21,835 nucleotides of DNA, taken from a virus. Under the pieces are notes generated by a model. It ran no database searches, was not told the origin of the DNA, and was given only the letters and a program-made list of their open reading frames with translations. Positions 11,401 through 17,561 of the stretch are shown in pieces (the first letter of the stretch is position 1; every line of letters starts with the position of its first letter). The stretch lies in the IMG/VR virus record IMGVR_UViG_3300025141_000890, positions 1-21,835 of that record, one strand, 5' to 3'. The position numbers and the translations under genes were made by a program.

Positions 11401-14400
11401 AAAATATTAAGAATGTGTTAAATGCAGCAGTTGAATCTAAAGAGCTTTCTAAAGAGGCAGCACAAGAGTATATTAAATTTTATGGAGATTTATCACAATC
11501 TGTCAGAGAAGCAGGAGTTGGACTTGTCAAGTTTAGCGATCAAGTTAATCAGACTGAAGCTGGCCAATGGGCTGCAGCTCTTAAAATGGCTAAGATTAAA
11601 GCTTTATCTAATATAGGTGGCATGATTACCAAAGAAGGTTCTCTTACTGCTAATTATGCATTTCAGGCAGTTCAAAGCCTAGATATGAAGAGGAGATTAA
11701 TTGCAAACGCTATATTGGAAATGTCTGACACAAGAATGATTGAATCTCAACAGGACGTTTTGAATTTATATGATAGGTCGAAAAGAGTATTACAAAATCT
11801 TGGTGCAGAGTTAAAAGAAGCTATCGATTCTAATGATGCAATCACTCTGCATGCATGGTCAAGTAAGATGAAGACTGCTAGAGAGTTAATTAAAAATATT
11901 GAGATGGCTGACGAGAGCACAAGGTCAGATTATTTACAGCAACTTATTGATTTAAAGAATGATGCTTTGAGTAAAATTAATCGTAATTCATGGAGTCAAA
12001 CTACGATTGATGATTTAGTGTCTCAGAAGCTAAGAAATACGTCTGGAAATATTCCAGGCAAAGATGTGACTGATAGTGGATTAAGGACTACGCTTGCACA
12101 ATTTAGTCTTAGATATGGAATAAATGCAACAGAGTTGAATGATATATTTTCTCCTGCAACTGAGGCTAGAATCAATGCAGAAACTATAAAGGTTTTAGGT
12201 AAAGAATTTTTAACAGATTATTATGATAATTTAGGTGGAATACAAAATGTAGATCTAAGAGTTAGAGTAGAAAATGTTATCTCTACTTTAGATAAATTAT
12301 CTGGTCAGATAGAAATGAATGGTGATACCTTTCATAAGCTTGTATATGAACCTTTAAAAACAAGAATAATGATTGATAGAAATATATCTGAACTTGCTGG
12401 TGAAAAATTAAAAATAAATTTTGAAACTGTAGAGTCTGATTTGTATAGTATTGCTTCTAGTTTTTTTAGTACTCGTCCTATCAAACACTTGCAAATAGAT
12501 CTTGCTAGCGGAAGATTACTGCAGACTCGTAAGCCTTTAGGTTATACTCCTGATCGAGGTATTACTGGGGTTATTAATGCATTAGAGGGAATGGGTGAAG
12601 GCCAGAAGCATATATATATATTAAACAATGATGTATTTATGGCTGATGGAAGAGTTAAGAATTTATTAGTTGGAAGAGATAGGAAGTTTATTGAAACAGA
12701 ATTAAAGACTAAAGATCTCCCAATAGAAGATGTCCAGGGTAAAGCTGAATTTTATACCATAGGGGCAACTGATAAAATAATTGATGTTAACCATTCCGAA
12801 CCATCACTGACAAGAGAATATAAGATTTTAAATTTAGATGAGAAGACTAGTGTTTTAGTTAGAATGGATAATGGTATCAAAAGGAATATAGCGGCAGCAT
12901 TTGATAGCGGTATTAGTGTTAATGATGGAGGACATTTATACAAACGATTACAGGCTATAATGGCTTCTGAAGGCAGGACAATAGATAGCAATCCAAGACT
13001 GAGACAGTTTATAGAGAGCATACAAGATGCATCAAGAATGAATGATCAATTAGCTGGTGATGCAATCCTTATGACAAGAATGATTCTTGATATGCCTAGT
13101 TTTGTAGAAAAATCTCTAGATCAATATGGCAGATTAAATGTTGAGAGTGCAGAATTTAAAGAGAGATGGAAAAGGCTTGGAATGACGCATTCTAAAAATG
13201 GATATATAGGTACTCCTCAAAATCTGGAAAAAACTGCAGCATTCTATAAAAATGCAGAGTCTCCTTTCCTTTCTAATATATACAAGGCTGTTAAGAAATG
13301 GGTAGAACCTGAAAATGGAAAATATAAAAAGGTTAAAGTACTATCTATAAATGATGAAGCAACTTATACTGATGGTAATTTAAGAAATATATTTAACTCT
13401 ATAGATAGGGCAAAGGTTGAGGTTGACAGGAGATTAGGCGAAGGAGAGATAGATAATTATACTAGAGATTATATGCTTCGTAGATATGAAGAGCTATCTA
13501 AATCTATTATGGATGGAGAAATGTTTGTATCAAAGGATGTGCTTCTTGCCTCAATGGCTATGCGTGGAGTTACACGAGAAATGGTAGATTATAATGAAAG
13601 AACTGGCAAGATTACTGGATTTAAATCTGGAGCAATAAAGCCTACTGTAACTCATGTAGATGTAGCATGGCAAGATCCTTCTGCACGTAATTATGGAGAA
13701 GTTACAGAATGGTATGGTAAGACAGCCTTTAAATATGCTCCAGAATTAGATAAGATAATGAAAATGCACAAGGTGGATGCAATTACTTTTAAATCTGCTA
13801 ATAAGATCAATGAGCATAAAGCTTCGAAAGATGCTCCATGGGATGTAGATGCAGACGGCAAGTCAACACGATATGCTACCCCTCAAGGCATTGATGCAGG
13901 TAATGTGGATATTATAAATGGAAATGTTGTAGACTTTCTTGGGAAGGGAGATGTAAATTTAGAAGTAACTCCTCAATCCATAACAGATATCCCATTTTCT
14001 TCAATTAATCTCAGAAGTATAAGTAGAGAGCATAATCCTATGGTTGGAAATAACACTGCTGTACATATGAGAGATAATAATGGTTTATCAGAATGGATAG
14101 GATTAGATAGAAAAATTGATGCATTATCCTATGGATTCCAAAATCAAGCTACTGATATATTTTTTAGAACTGAACTTGCCAATAAGGTATTTGGTGCAGC
14201 TGCAGAAGGTGGGGATAATTCAGCAGTTAGAACTGGAATTGAATCTGTTCTCAGTAGAAATGGATTATTAACAGATCCATGGATGCAAAAAAGATTAGAA
14301 GAAAATTTAATTAATTACTATATGAATAATGGAAATATAGGATCAGGAATTGTACCTGATGGATCCATTGATGTTATGAGTGCTGATCTGGGGAACTTAT

Positions 14401-17400
14401 CTATACCAATAAGGAGCAGGTTCCAAGTGGGTGGAAAAGATATTAGAGCTGTACAATTTTTTGGAGAATTTCAAATGTCTCATTATGGTGGACAAAGAGC
14501 ATTCGAATTGTATGGAGAAGGGCGTGGCAATATTCAGTCTGCAATTATACAGAAAATTAAATACTCAACTGATGCATTTAGTGTAGATTATAATGGAACT
14601 AGGTCAGACAAGGCAATTGACTCTAGGGTAGCAGATGCATTCATCACTACTACTTCGACTGGAGAGAAGTATTTGATTGTTGAGGGCATGGCAATAGATA
14701 AAAGTGGACGATTGCTAGATCTTGATAATATTGAATCTAATAAGCCAATTTTTGGTCCTACAGCACCTGCAAAGTATACTGCACCACAGCGTAGACCATC
14801 TACTAGACAGGCAGAAATGGAAATAAGGAATAAAATAGTTTATGATGATGCTGTGAAGCAGCAAGATGCTATTATAGAGGGAGCTAAAGGTAAAGGTTTA
14901 ACTACGATGTCTGAATATGCTTCTGAATTGTATACGTGGGGTAAAGAAAACAATAGAGCTGTATCTCTTGGTGTACTAAATAGTAGACAGCCTCGTAATA
15001 TGATTGGCGATATTGTTATCAATAAAGCCAAGGTTCTTGAAAAGGGAAATAATATAATAACTACAGTTGACAAAAGAAGTGGAAATATTAGCAGAATGAA
15101 TCATGTAGATGCAATTAATCCTCAAGATGCAGATTTTGATATGGATAAGTCTTTTGCATATACTGCTGCACATGGAAACTTTTGGATGGAAGCTGGTCGT
15201 TTAGCTGGTTATGATCTTACACGAGGACATCATATCGCTATCGCAGAAGATTTTGCTACAAGATTTAATTCTGCTATTCCTGAAATGTTAAGATCAGCAG
15301 AAATATCTCATGAAGAAGCTGTTGCTCAAGGTAATATGCATAGAGGTATGTTTGTTAAAATGCATCAGACAGCTACATATCTTGCAAACATTTTCAGAGA
15401 AGATCCAACTGTTATGACCTTTAAGGGAGATATTATAGGCGTAGGAAAGGGAGAGTTATATCAAGTTAGATTGAAACCTGGAGCTAATTATATTAGTACT
15501 GTAGATAATATAGCAGACTGGTCTAAAAAATATATTGACCTTTATAAGAATGCTTTATCTAAGAATGAAATGGATAGAGCTAGAGATATACAATATGATA
15601 TATTATTTGGCAAGGATGGCTTATTTGAAATCCATAGCCAAACAGGATTATTGCCAGATGTACAGCACTTAGGACATAATAGTGCAGCTCCTATTAGAGA
15701 GGCCATTATTAAGCGCTTTATACTCCCTATTAATAGATATTTAAAGATGAATCAAGGGGTGACTGCCGATAGTTATGGTAGTGAAAGAAAAGCTAGGCTA
15801 TCTGACTATAATAATTCATACTTTAGCATGATAAATGCTATCGACCCTAATAGGGCATATGCTGGAGTATTAAGTTCTGGTGAAGGTATGGATATGCAGG
15901 CAGGCTTAAGGGCAGCCTCCTCTTTCTTTGCCAACTCTAAAGCTCCATTTGATGTAGCTATGAAAAATTTACACCAAATATATGACCAAATGTATCATAT
16001 TAGATCAGAGTCAAGAAAGCCTAGAGCACTTGATCCTGTTAATGATATACTAAATTATATTGACGAAGGATTTATGGGTGATAGACTGGAATGGAATGAT
16101 GCAGATGCTGCTCAGAGACAGGTAATTGTTAATGATGTATATAGAAAATCACTAATAGATTTTGTAAAAGATCAAGAGAGAGCTTTAACCTTATCAGATA
16201 TGGCTGGAAGATTAAAATCTTTAGATCTACAAATAGAAGATGCTGAAAGATTTGGAAAGACAGATCAATTATTGGAGCGTAGATCTTATCAAGATCTTCT
16301 TGCCAAGAGAAATAGATTGCTTGAAGCGAAAACTATACTTGAATCCGCATTGACAACTCAATGGGGTGATGCTATAGAAGTTGGCATGGATATTAAGAAG
16401 CATTCAGGATATGAGGAAAGTAAGTATGAAAATCGAAGCTTTAAGCCTATGGTTATTGTTGATGCTAATACAAAAAAAGTGAAAGAAGTAATATTACCAG
16501 GAAAGCGTAATTTTCAAGAGATTTATAAAAAAGATATAATAATAGAAAATGGTAGAAGGTTTGAGATTACCGATCCATTAGAGCAAGAAGGCCTTAGAAT
16601 GGTATGGGAAAGGTTTGGTGGATTGCCAGGTATGACAGATAAATCAGGTAAAAGATTTGTTATAGATAGAAATCTTAATGAAACTGTTATTATGCCTGCT
16701 GTAAATAGAATCTATGCCAGAACAATAGAAGTAAGAGAGAACCTACTGAATGAAAATAGACTGTCTAATTCTGAAATGGCAAGGGAGAGAATCTCAATTA
16801 TTGCAGATGAGCTTGCAAGAAATACCGATATAGTTAATGCTATTAATCCTGAAACTGCAGATTTATATAGATGGGGGATAGTATCTAGATTGTTATCTCC
16901 AAGAGTAGATAACAGTGTAATTTCAATGAGAAATATTGTTGGCAATCAGGGAAGGCGAGCTATATTTGATGCTAAATTTATAGAAAGTAAGTTTGCAGAG
17001 CCTGTGTATTCATTGTTATCATCTGTGGAAAATGGATCATTTTTAACTTCAGGGATGGATAAAGCTACTGCTAGAGAAATATTAGATAATATTAATATTC
17101 AAAAGAAGATAGGTGCAGTCTCATCTAAAAATAAATTTATTGATTTAGAATTGCTAGAAAGTAGGTATTTTACAGAGCCTGCAGATATACAACAAGGATA
17201 TTTATCTAGTGGTATGCACCTAGACAAAAGTGTATTTGAACAATTGCAGCATCAAAATCAAAATATCAGAAGAGCTGCTGAAATTATGGTAGATTATGCT
17301 AGAGGGAACAGATTGTTAGATGGTGTAACTCTATATAAGGCTTCTAGGGAACTAACTAAAGCAGGTATTCCTATCGATAGGCAGATGGTTAGAAGTAAGT

Positions 17401-17561
17401 GGGAGCAGTTAGAAGATGGTACAGGCAAAGTATATGGTGAAAGAATTAGATCAATTTCTGAATTGGACTCAGCCCCTATGAGAAAGTGGGGAAATAATGG
17501 AGCTCTAAATGAATCTGTACAAAAAAGAACTAGAGAATTATATAAATGTTATCTTGATTGA
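8448..17561 (+). CDS. Giant virion protein, candidate single-chain RNA polymerase (3037 aa)
   Basis: One uninterrupted frame of 3037 residues. ATG 8448 follows the upstream stop by 4 bases, with a weak AAGG just before; an ATG at 8444 is out of frame. Residues 93-134 are Gly-rich and hydrophobic, perhaps membrane-contacting. Most of residues 140-1500 is helical and unrecognised. Near residue 1782 is F-K-S-A-N-K followed by I-N-E-H-K, a possible counterpart of the lysine-bearing beta-subunit barrel. Residues 2176-2183 read VLNSRQPR, and residues 2227-2234 read DADFDMDK. Together these match the beta' double-psi barrel pattern (N-R-x-P, then N-A-D-F-D-G-D), keeping the Arg, the Pro and all three metal-binding Asp (2229, 2231, 2233). 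A helix near 2298-2315 (HRGMFVKMHQTATYLANIF) could be the bridge helix. Known crAss-like phage virion polymerases combine such barrels in one long chain. I infer that this protein is packaged and ejected and transcribes early genes. Being a giant internal protein is fairly sure; active polymerase is likely but unproven. Confidence 0.6.
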   Translation: MGLYEDILKQQEAQRQNQLLLDTERQKLDANRQSGAVEFLGQTLWGGFSALSMGGLDLHDMYTEANEPGEKTWEDIISLGGPREWEDLSNWGKAGYTIGTAMGMLPTFGLGGLGAKGVVKGGAKVAGNVGVKSLKKQASKELLEKASTIASKHGDEVVETIGKQADTIMDDVYKLAGEGSVADDIGKQMGGEWYQQVATADIAQSLAKALPLDQKVANELASEAFEIFTRNNPTDAANMMRAMVRRIPGLDNRAGKIAGAMAYESMIGLNMGLLRAGTNNLQRWATGYQGPDQYGFKPEGSYWLDTMHHGLSEGAWFSVIGPVKFIKGGKDKALWRKGKDVFTGMYKAMRPAGKLTHKELQHTLTAMDIVQGGTLNSRLGDKWASKGAMWWKDAVKGEGTTEMRNFLNEARMTFLKRAPIDLAKEFGREMWSSAPRMGMGVLAMNAHGLFEYYNQGGDGLPFNAMGRDPQEIIGNVMTAAFFTRRPHSFHDNKPMKFFETGKIESYFDGKASELRKTTGALQTMIKHYDGSRLEALERVTARFAPPAPTGSERAKNITNHSIASSPEITELKEILTPFILREGEIRQTGKGRFTNLEDAVNDYVAKNFAEKGQEGKRDQLMEQLFIAKKIIELNNNHTFEQLDMKNITSDQAVELVQKISKINFGDRPLQYENILERVPEWIMESISKNTVEPMGISKRFIKGIYDALGIEYLDEKGVITAPRIHDVQGMHFNDSLLLEAFSTVYKNGLKSGWIREGRSVELPELNAEKLLRSKSIWDNSINELMQYTYGEGWVDKGIERDISILQNDAWYHTYRNIADIQQANAARALLTGDSKHNMDPTESKRLTQALSELLFTSENPGIEYKSEAGSGVEAAERAELNKFIERLHAGVKSLNPQISKKVGRPLTEEQAKEFKNKIEQLAGDTFSVEESFRFFERFSFEKSVQKLGLSDMRVGFDTKAALIELYNNPDINFGDSGQLVFPTLKNIKNVLNAAVESKELSKEAAQEYIKFYGDLSQSVREAGVGLVKFSDQVNQTEAGQWAAALKMAKIKALSNIGGMITKEGSLTANYAFQAVQSLDMKRRLIANAILEMSDTRMIESQQDVLNLYDRSKRVLQNLGAELKEAIDSNDAITLHAWSSKMKTARELIKNIEMADESTRSDYLQQLIDLKNDALSKINRNSWSQTTIDDLVSQKLRNTSGNIPGKDVTDSGLRTTLAQFSLRYGINATELNDIFSPATEARINAETIKVLGKEFLTDYYDNLGGIQNVDLRVRVENVISTLDKLSGQIEMNGDTFHKLVYEPLKTRIMIDRNISELAGEKLKINFETVESDLYSIASSFFSTRPIKHLQIDLASGRLLQTRKPLGYTPDRGITGVINALEGMGEGQKHIYILNNDVFMADGRVKNLLVGRDRKFIETELKTKDLPIEDVQGKAEFYTIGATDKIIDVNHSEPSLTREYKILNLDEKTSVLVRMDNGIKRNIAAAFDSGISVNDGGHLYKRLQAIMASEGRTIDSNPRLRQFIESIQDASRMNDQLAGDAILMTRMILDMPSFVEKSLDQYGRLNVESAEFKERWKRLGMTHSKNGYIGTPQNLEKTAAFYKNAESPFLSNIYKAVKKWVEPENGKYKKVKVLSINDEATYTDGNLRNIFNSIDRAKVEVDRRLGEGEIDNYTRDYMLRRYEELSKSIMDGEMFVSKDVLLASMAMRGVTREMVDYNERTGKITGFKSGAIKPTVTHVDVAWQDPSARNYGEVTEWYGKTAFKYAPELDKIMKMHKVDAITFKSANKINEHKASKDAPWDVDADGKSTRYATPQGIDAGNVDIINGNVVDFLGKGDVNLEVTPQSITDIPFSSINLRSISREHNPMVGNNTAVHMRDNNGLSEWIGLDRKIDALSYGFQNQATDIFFRTELANKVFGAAAEGGDNSAVRTGIESVLSRNGLLTDPWMQKRLEENLINYYMNNGNIGSGIVPDGSIDVMSADLGNLSIPIRSRFQVGGKDIRAVQFFGEFQMSHYGGQRAFELYGEGRGNIQSAIIQKIKYSTDAFSVDYNGTRSDKAIDSRVADAFITTTSTGEKYLIVEGMAIDKSGRLLDLDNIESNKPIFGPTAPAKYTAPQRRPSTRQAEMEIRNKIVYDDAVKQQDAIIEGAKGKGLTTMSEYASELYTWGKENNRAVSLGVLNSRQPRNMIGDIVINKAKVLEKGNNIITTVDKRSGNISRMNHVDAINPQDADFDMDKSFAYTAAHGNFWMEAGRLAGYDLTRGHHIAIAEDFATRFNSAIPEMLRSAEISHEEAVAQGNMHRGMFVKMHQTATYLANIFREDPTVMTFKGDIIGVGKGELYQVRLKPGANYISTVDNIADWSKKYIDLYKNALSKNEMDRARDIQYDILFGKDGLFEIHSQTGLLPDVQHLGHNSAAPIREAIIKRFILPINRYLKMNQGVTADSYGSERKARLSDYNNSYFSMINAIDPNRAYAGVLSSGEGMDMQAGLRAASSFFANSKAPFDVAMKNLHQIYDQMYHIRSESRKPRALDPVNDILNYIDEGFMGDRLEWNDADAAQRQVIVNDVYRKSLIDFVKDQERALTLSDMAGRLKSLDLQIEDAERFGKTDQLLERRSYQDLLAKRNRLLEAKTILESALTTQWGDAIEVGMDIKKHSGYEESKYENRSFKPMVIVDANTKKVKEVILPGKRNFQEIYKKDIIIENGRRFEITDPLEQEGLRMVWERFGGLPGMTDKSGKRFVIDRNLNETVIMPAVNRIYARTIEVRENLLNENRLSNSEMARERISIIADELARNTDIVNAINPETADLYRWGIVSRLLSPRVDNSVISMRNIVGNQGRRAIFDAKFIESKFAEPVYSLLSSVENGSFLTSGMDKATAREILDNINIQKKIGAVSSKNKFIDLELLESRYFTEPADIQQGYLSSGMHLDKSVFEQLQHQNQNIRRAAEIMVDYARGNRLLDGVTLYKASRELTKAGIPIDRQMVRSKWEQLEDGTGKVYGERIRSISELDSAPMRKWGNNGALNESVQKRTRELYKCYLD
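14985..15146 (+). other. RNA polymerase beta'-like double-psi barrel motif pair
   Basis: This stretch runs from Arg2180 of SRQP to Asp2233 of DFDMD in the giant protein. In cellular beta' subunits, the Arg of N-R-(A/Q)-P contacts the incoming nucleotide and the Asp triad of D-F-D-G-D holds the catalytic Mg. Here the spacing from Arg to the first Asp of the triad is 49 residues, against 35 in Escherichia coli. The difference fits one longer loop (KRSGNISRMN region). The Gly to Met change is at the position that does not bind metal. Confidence 0.6.

Follow-up and report, generated by a model that had tools for sequence, protein, structure and literature searches.

A giant protein with a predicted two-barrel RNA polymerase core among the probable cargo genes of an uncultured podovirus, and paired terminal cysteines between neighbouring cargo proteins

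The DNA considered here, called the window throughout, is a 21,835-base linear virus fragment from IMG/VR (IMGVR_UViG_3300025141_000890), derived from an uncultured bacterial virus. Its plus strand carries an open reading frame (ORF) of 3037 codons, whose product we call the giant, followed by the gene of a 985-aa protein. A preliminary description of the window had proposed, from two short motifs, that the giant contains a multisubunit-type RNA polymerase (RNAP). A check of the ORF and its residues confirmed the motifs and their 49-residue spacing: VLNSRQPR occupies residues 2176-2183 and DADFDMDK residues 2227-2234, R2180 lies 49 residues before D2229, and window positions 14985-15146 run from R2180 to D2233. 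The pattern DxD[F/Y]DxD occurs only once across the six frames of the window.

By itself such a motif proves little, because QDADFDLDK has also arisen by chance in the unrelated export protein Wza (PDB 9r60, 9xgv and 26gs); we judge that of the giant to be above chance because of its conservation in relatives. A first scan of IMG/VR with the motif region returned 6 contigs, and a scan with their alignment returned 43. These 43 further viral contigs encode the same protein of ~3,000 aa, at identities from 73% down to about 20%, in an ORF of about 2,950-3,210 aa unless it is cut by the end of the stretch, and D-x-D-[F/Y]-D-x-D-K is present in every one. Together with the window they give 44 giants, which fall into 28 clusters at 50% identity and 12 at 35%. 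Across 38 aligned sequences, reaching down to 19-22% identity, the invariant residues are K1731-P1732, K1758-T1759 and K1786 in one region and R2180, P2182, D2227, D2229, D2231, D2233 and K2234 in another. Among the 3037 columns, positions with at least 90% conservation are most concentrated at residues 1701-1800 (12 positions) and 2201-2300 (16 positions), as expected for two catalytic barrels, while other 100-residue blocks hold 0-5. Homologs without the aspartates, which the preliminary description had named as grounds for dropping its proposal, did not turn up: the triad stands in every homolog.

These counts bear on two other accounts of the giant. That the motif is a coincidence in an unrelated ejection protein is extremely improbable: the Wza string shows that nine similar residues can appear by chance, but this account is contradicted by conservation in all 44 contigs, by a second, lysine-bearing conserved barrel and by the fold comparison described below, whose 26 best matches are all two-barrel polymerases. 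The giant could also be a degenerate, polymerase-like scaffold, an ejection or tape-measure-like protein that bears the barrels but has lost a working active site, as its great size and its lack of sequence similarity to known polymerases beyond the motifs might suggest. We consider this very unlikely, since all catalytic residues are kept across the 12 clusters at 35% identity and no part of the chain is better conserved than the catalytic barrels.

The preliminary description also took the Met of the triad and the size of the chain to be distinctive, and here it did not hold. The Met position is variable, being M, F or L in the window's family, I or V in crAss-like phages and G in cells, and long chains are ordinary for the class, with 4,070 aa in Carjivirus, 4,401 aa in Fpv1 and 5,002 aa in P23-45 gp96 (PMC10770324). 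We therefore rejected both as marks of a new class. Six loci (L021, L022, L023, L025, L028 and L031) have DADYDMD in place of DADFDMD; QDE-1 also has a Tyr at the corresponding place.

We modelled residues 1380-2560 with AlphaFold2 from the 38 sequences, obtaining a predicted local distance difference test score (pLDDT) of 80 and a predicted template modelling score (pTM) of 0.81; a model of the core alone, residues 1690-2345, also had a pLDDT of 80. In the VIA-align comparison with solved structures, the best matches were QDE-1 (Z 12.5, 436 residues) and RDR2 (12.4), with RNA polymerase I (9.8), African swine fever virus RNAP (9.3), the non-virion RNAP (nvRNAP) of AR9 (8.7), P23-45 gp64 (8.3) and RNA polymerase II also among the matches. 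The crAss-like virion polymerase 6VR4 was matched at Z 7.9 over 612 residues at 4.7 Å. The top 26 matches were two-barrel polymerases only, and the first clearly unrelated ones had a Z of 6.9 or less and covered fewer than 100 residues. The model of the core alone can be superposed on QDE-1 710-1111, the first, lysine-bearing barrel being matched from QDE-1 residue 710 onwards; the same barrel is the one that aligns to the crAss RNAP profile. Residues 1966-2256 superpose on Rpb1 342-511 at 3.3-3.5 Å over 115-135 residues (Z 8.0-8.3). Within that superposition D2233 lies 23 residues before the alignment end matched to Rpb1 510-511, and D485 of the Rpb1 triad lies 25-26 residues before the same end; these near-equal distances place the two triads in register within a few residues. 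Helices follow barrel 2 in the model, inside the QDE-1 and 6VR4 superpositions, with no individual bridge helix or trigger loop assigned.

Foldseek against viral predicted models matched the giant to unnamed viral proteins (E 6.5e-25) and to crAss-like phage proteins (4e-9 to 8e-4), including one of cr50_1 (4e-9) and a 'putative RNA polymerase' of cr111_1 (6e-6). The cr50_1 record is matched by phi14:2 gp66 as well, in a gene labelled 'DNA helicase'. In phage records, crAss-like RNA polymerases are also deposited as 'nuclear pore complex protein-like' or 'DprA-like', and annotation searches will therefore miss them. Fold matches to PPAR-gamma were discarded as chance or helical.

The structure prediction that the preliminary description had suggested as a check thus came out in favour of its proposal: the model matches two-barrel polymerases, 6VR4 included, and in it the motif region overlies the active-site barrel of Rpb1 rather than lacking a double-psi barrel. 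A two-barrel ('multisubunit-type') core is supported by the invariant catalytic residues in both barrels together with the predicted fold, for which the best matches among solved structures are without exception two-barrel polymerases, and on this model we hold it very highly probable that the giant has a two-barrel RNA polymerase fold. The giants form a new and divergent family within a known kind of enzyme.

In a profile comparison, hhalign aligned the giant's family to a crAss-like RNAP profile (phi14:2 and seven others) with a score of 40.2 (E 0.0028). None of 120 column or block shuffles reached this score (best 35.7), and the reversed profile scored 17.7. The aligned segment, 'DGExFLS ... 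IKP ... KTAFKYxP ... VDxITFxSAxKiN', covers the lysine barrel only. This supports distant homology in that barrel, and alone it does not place the giant inside the crAss family. The single-sequence hhalign comparison of the giant with phi14:2 was not significant, and the giant's N-terminal part and the 985-aa protein had no detectable homology to crAss cargo proteins by hhalign.

The crAss-like virion RNAP (phi14:2 gp66, PDB 6VR4; crAss001 gp50) resembles the giant in being a single chain with two barrels, DxDxD, RxP and a lysine barrel, in lying in a podovirus virion gene cluster before another giant cargo gene, and in the terminal cysteine pairing at its junctions. It differs in that the window's family has no BLAST or hidden Markov model similarity to it and reads Q-D-A-D-F-D-x-D-K-S where crAss-like enzymes read G-S-D-F-D-I-D-K; the window's relatives, moreover, have a P22-like portal and an SU10-like capsid protein, and their polymerase is internal in a 3,000-aa, one-cysteine chain. 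The RNA-interference polymerases QDE-1 and RDR2 of eukaryotes, the best solved fold matches (Z 12-12.5, 436-521 residues), are cellular, not virion, enzymes and share 11-12% identity with the giant.

Several results weigh against reading the giant as a polymerase that serves early transcription. Searches of Pfam, PHROGs and PDB sequences gave no match, and blastn and tblastn against an annotated phage collection that includes crAss-like phages found no relative. Foldseek of the model against the PDB returned nothing with E <= 0.001, so that fold recognition rests on the VIA-align second look and the viral predicted models. By hhalign the link to crAss RNAPs is weak (its E value is for one comparison) and leaves the DxDxD blocks unaligned, while convergence of the triad on one site is judged solely from the register of the alignment ends. 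Finally, a promoter search of the early regions of two long relatives, G006 and G007, gave only the Shine-Dalgarno-like AAGGAGATAA and no early promoter motif.

G006 and G007 (50-53 kb contigs) show the setting of the gene. Their gene order starts with terminase, portal, capsid and tail genes and a calcineurin-like phosphoesterase, continues with small internal proteins, the giant and a partner of ~1,000 aa, and ends in replication genes on the opposite strand, so that giant and partner are placed among virion genes. G006 has a P22-like portal (P22_portal), an SU10-like capsid protein (SU10_MCP), a DnaB-like helicase and an ERF annealing protein, and its terminase matches those of other podoviruses at 24-27%; in the terminase relatives RHph_N65 and CRP-4 no comparable giant gene is annotated. 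The window represents the same right-hand part (Table 1), from a spike with an S74 chaperone through the 417-aa protein, two further internal proteins, the giant and the 985-aa protein to minus-strand genes including a RusA/PDDEXK-type nuclease. The Gly/Ala-rich 417-aa protein is of a type seen among ejection proteins. Judged from these genes, the phage is a P22-portal podovirus and not a demonstrated crassvirus; crAss structural genes were not directly compared. GTDB genomes searched with 7-8-residue patterns yielded no relative, and hence no prophage or host clue.

Table 1. Positions of the giant, its predicted functional sites and the neighbouring genes in the window
Feature	Position	Strand	Remarks
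Tail spike/fibre with Peptidase_S74 chaperone domain, 1191 aa	1064..4639	+	domain match
Probable ejection protein, 417 aa	4652..5905	+	hydrophobic, Gly/Ala-rich segment at residue 36; lacks cysteine
Probable cargo/internal protein, 268 aa	5909..6715	+	position only
Probable cargo/internal protein, 567 aa	6740..8443	+	position; no cysteine
Giant cargo protein (probable), 3037 aa	8448..17561	+	predicted two-barrel RNA polymerase core at about residues 1380-2560
Predicted barrel 1 (beta-like, lysine-bearing), residues about 1709-1859	13572..14024	+	GAIKP, GKTAFKY, VDAITFKSANK
K1731 (IKP)	13638..13640	+	invariant
K1758 (GKT)	13719..13721	+	invariant
K1786 (SANK)	13803..13805	+	invariant
Predicted barrel 2 (beta'-like, metal-binding), residues about 1966-2256	14343..15215	+	superposed on Rpb1 342-511
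R-Q-P, residues 2180-2182, putative N-R-x-P equivalent	14985..14993	+	R2180, P2182 invariant in 38 sequences
Predicted catalytic DxDxD: D2229, D2231, D2233	15132..15146	+	kept in 44/44 giants
RGMFVKMHQTATYLANIF, residues 2299-2316, candidate bridge-helix region (weak)	15342..15395	+	model helix; conserved in near subfamily only
C3034, sole cysteine of giant, 4th residue from C-end	17547..17549	+	single C-end cysteine in 44/44 giants
Partner cargo protein (probable), 985 aa	17583..20540	+	follows giant wherever the locus extends far enough
C6, sole cysteine of 985-aa protein	17598..17600	+	one N-end cysteine in 39/39 downstream proteins
Small PDDEXK / RusA-like Holliday junction resolvase gene, first of opposite-strand region	20750-21133	-	domain match

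Other features of this neighbourhood were noted in passing. The calcineurin-like phosphoesterase is kept among the structural genes in both long contigs (G006, L061:17967-18740; G007, 19691-20473), and metallophosphoesterase genes lie close to the structural block of phi14:2 too. In G006 the gene immediately after that of the ~1,000-aa partner encodes a 2OG-Fe(II) oxygenase (L063:5009-5677). In the distant relatives L037, L038, L040, L042 and L045 a simple ORF caller gave very cysteine-rich ORFs upstream of the giant, which may be shadow ORFs.

Known systems offer models for what such a protein might do. N4 gp50 is a T7-like polymerase; PF00940, the T7-like RNAP family, had no match in the window's giant or in 21 related contigs, although the control genome in the contig search was also unmatched. 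Like the giant, N4 gp50 (3,500 aa) is a very large single-chain polymerase of a podovirus, ejected together with two smaller proteins (PMC12633501). P23-45 gp96 is a two-barrel virion RNAP within a giant virion protein that enters the cell; it differs in that the RNAP sits at the N-end of the 5,002-aa tape measure of a long-tailed phage, has the motif DFDGD and is clamp-less (PMC10770324). In crAss001 the virion cargo comprises gp45 and gp46 together with the RNAP-associated gp47, gp49 and gp50, the last three of which were detected in virions by mass spectrometry (PMC10172136).

From its gene position and from crAss001, phi14:2 and N4, the giant is probably packaged in the virion and ejected, and by analogy it is most likely virion cargo that would transcribe early genes. 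Packaging is a step that we infer here, and non-virion two-barrel enzymes with similar fold scores exist (7s00, Z 8.7; 8f72, Z 8.3), as would suit a polymerase made after infection, like P23-45 gp64 or AR9 nvRNAP, whose gene simply adjoins the virion genes. We find that unlikely. The giant's gene ends the structural module, after the tail and internal protein genes, with the early genes on the other strand; non-virion enzymes are compact, with chains of about 400-600 aa, whereas the giant's core is fused to about 1,900 further residues; and one cysteine per 3,000 residues resembles the ejected cargo of N4, which has none. The best explanation of the whole is a single-chain, two-barrel DNA-dependent RNA polymerase within podovirus cargo, to which we assign a probability of roughly 0.85.

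We examined cysteines at the pair sites in the window, in all relatives' loci and in L076, L077, L078, L079, L081 and L082. The giant has one cysteine in 3037 residues and the 985-aa protein likewise one. Each of the 44 giants has exactly one, 1-7 residues from the C-end, in surrounding sequence that cannot be aligned, and the visible part of the next protein has exactly one, at position 3-11, in all 39 loci where it is present. By comparison, the cysteine content of the remaining ORFs that reach 300 aa or more in the same loci is 0.58%; just 2.3% of these ORFs carry a cysteine within their first 11 residues and just 4.5% within their last 9. The protein immediately upstream of the giant is cysteine-free in relatives as well as in the window.

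The same arrangement is found in other phages with two-barrel virion polymerases, where both cysteines are present at 13 of 14 cargo junctions (crAss-like phages and Fpv1). For example, gp078 of phi14:2 ends in its single cysteine; two are present in the RNAP (gp66 of the literature, gp077 in the record), namely C3 and C2179 in a chain of 2180 residues, and gp076 has C3 as its only one. In crAss001 the cysteines are at -3 in gp47, which is encoded on the other strand, at C5 and -9 in gp50 (plus one internal) and at C5 in gp49. The pair is also present in cr1_1, cr128_1, DAC15, cr113_1, Carjivirus gp45/gp44 and Fpv1, some crAss-like polymerases having further internal cysteines; crAss002, with its annotated start, has the C-end half only. 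Rudgehvirus and Dulem virus 41, which were retrieved later to test the pairing, both fit it. A polymerase fused to its downstream partner (Carjivirus, Rudgehvirus) lacks the C-end cysteine, and one that shares a chain with the upstream part (Fpv1, the window's family) lacks the N-end cysteine. Proteins at the ends of the cargo series have a cysteine only on the side facing their neighbour, and those in the middle have one on both sides. In N4, gp50, gp51 and gp52 have no cysteine, so that a low cysteine content may by itself come from threading; the terminal pairs, among the systems examined, are specific to those with two-barrel polymerases. A literature search that did not extend to the original phi14:2 paper found no report of the pairing, and the two structural papers searched do not mention cargo cysteines.

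Most simply, the pairs can be read as a reversible staple that joins consecutive cargo proteins head to tail. In the window's family, crAss-like phages and Fpv1-like phages, two-barrel virion polymerases and neighbouring cargo would be linked in the particle by a disulfide from C-end to N-end, pulled through the tail as one thread in fixed order and parted in the reducing cytoplasm, gene fusion and staple being interchangeable joins. We lean slightly towards this proposal. Cysteines near a chain end are also used in ligation and lipidation chemistry, and the pair could instead serve enzymatic ligation or trimming, docking of a metal or cofactor, or lipid attachment. The reducing bacterial cytoplasm favours such a role, because it would allow a disulfide to form only late or once the cell has lysed; against such a role stand the placement of cysteines only on neighbour-facing ends, the lack of the pair at fused junctions, the inter-protein disulfides present in crAss001 tails (PMC10172136) and the thioredoxins encoded near the cargo region in Carjivirus and Rudgehvirus. 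On balance a role other than a disulfide is a substantial, if somewhat doubtful, possibility.

Taken with the polymerase, the staple suggests the following course of infection. The giant would be packed into the capsid together with the smaller internal proteins whose genes immediately precede its own and with the 985-aa protein whose gene immediately follows. C3034 would pair with C6, probably through a disulfide, and the giant and the 985-aa protein would thereby travel as one thread. At infection the giant would be threaded through the short tail and refold in the cytoplasm, where the reducing conditions would separate it from the 985-aa protein. It would then transcribe early genes without the host polymerase, using a metal held by D2229, D2231 and D2233 together with the barrel-1 lysines.

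The paired terminal cysteines are a more surprising result than the enzyme itself, and they offer a directly testable answer to the question of how several giant proteins are driven in the correct order through the narrow tail of a phage. With the enzyme comes a large family of giant two-barrel polymerases that lies outside the named crAss-like phages and has gone unannotated, and host-independent early transcription by this class of enzyme thus looks more widespread than libraries show.
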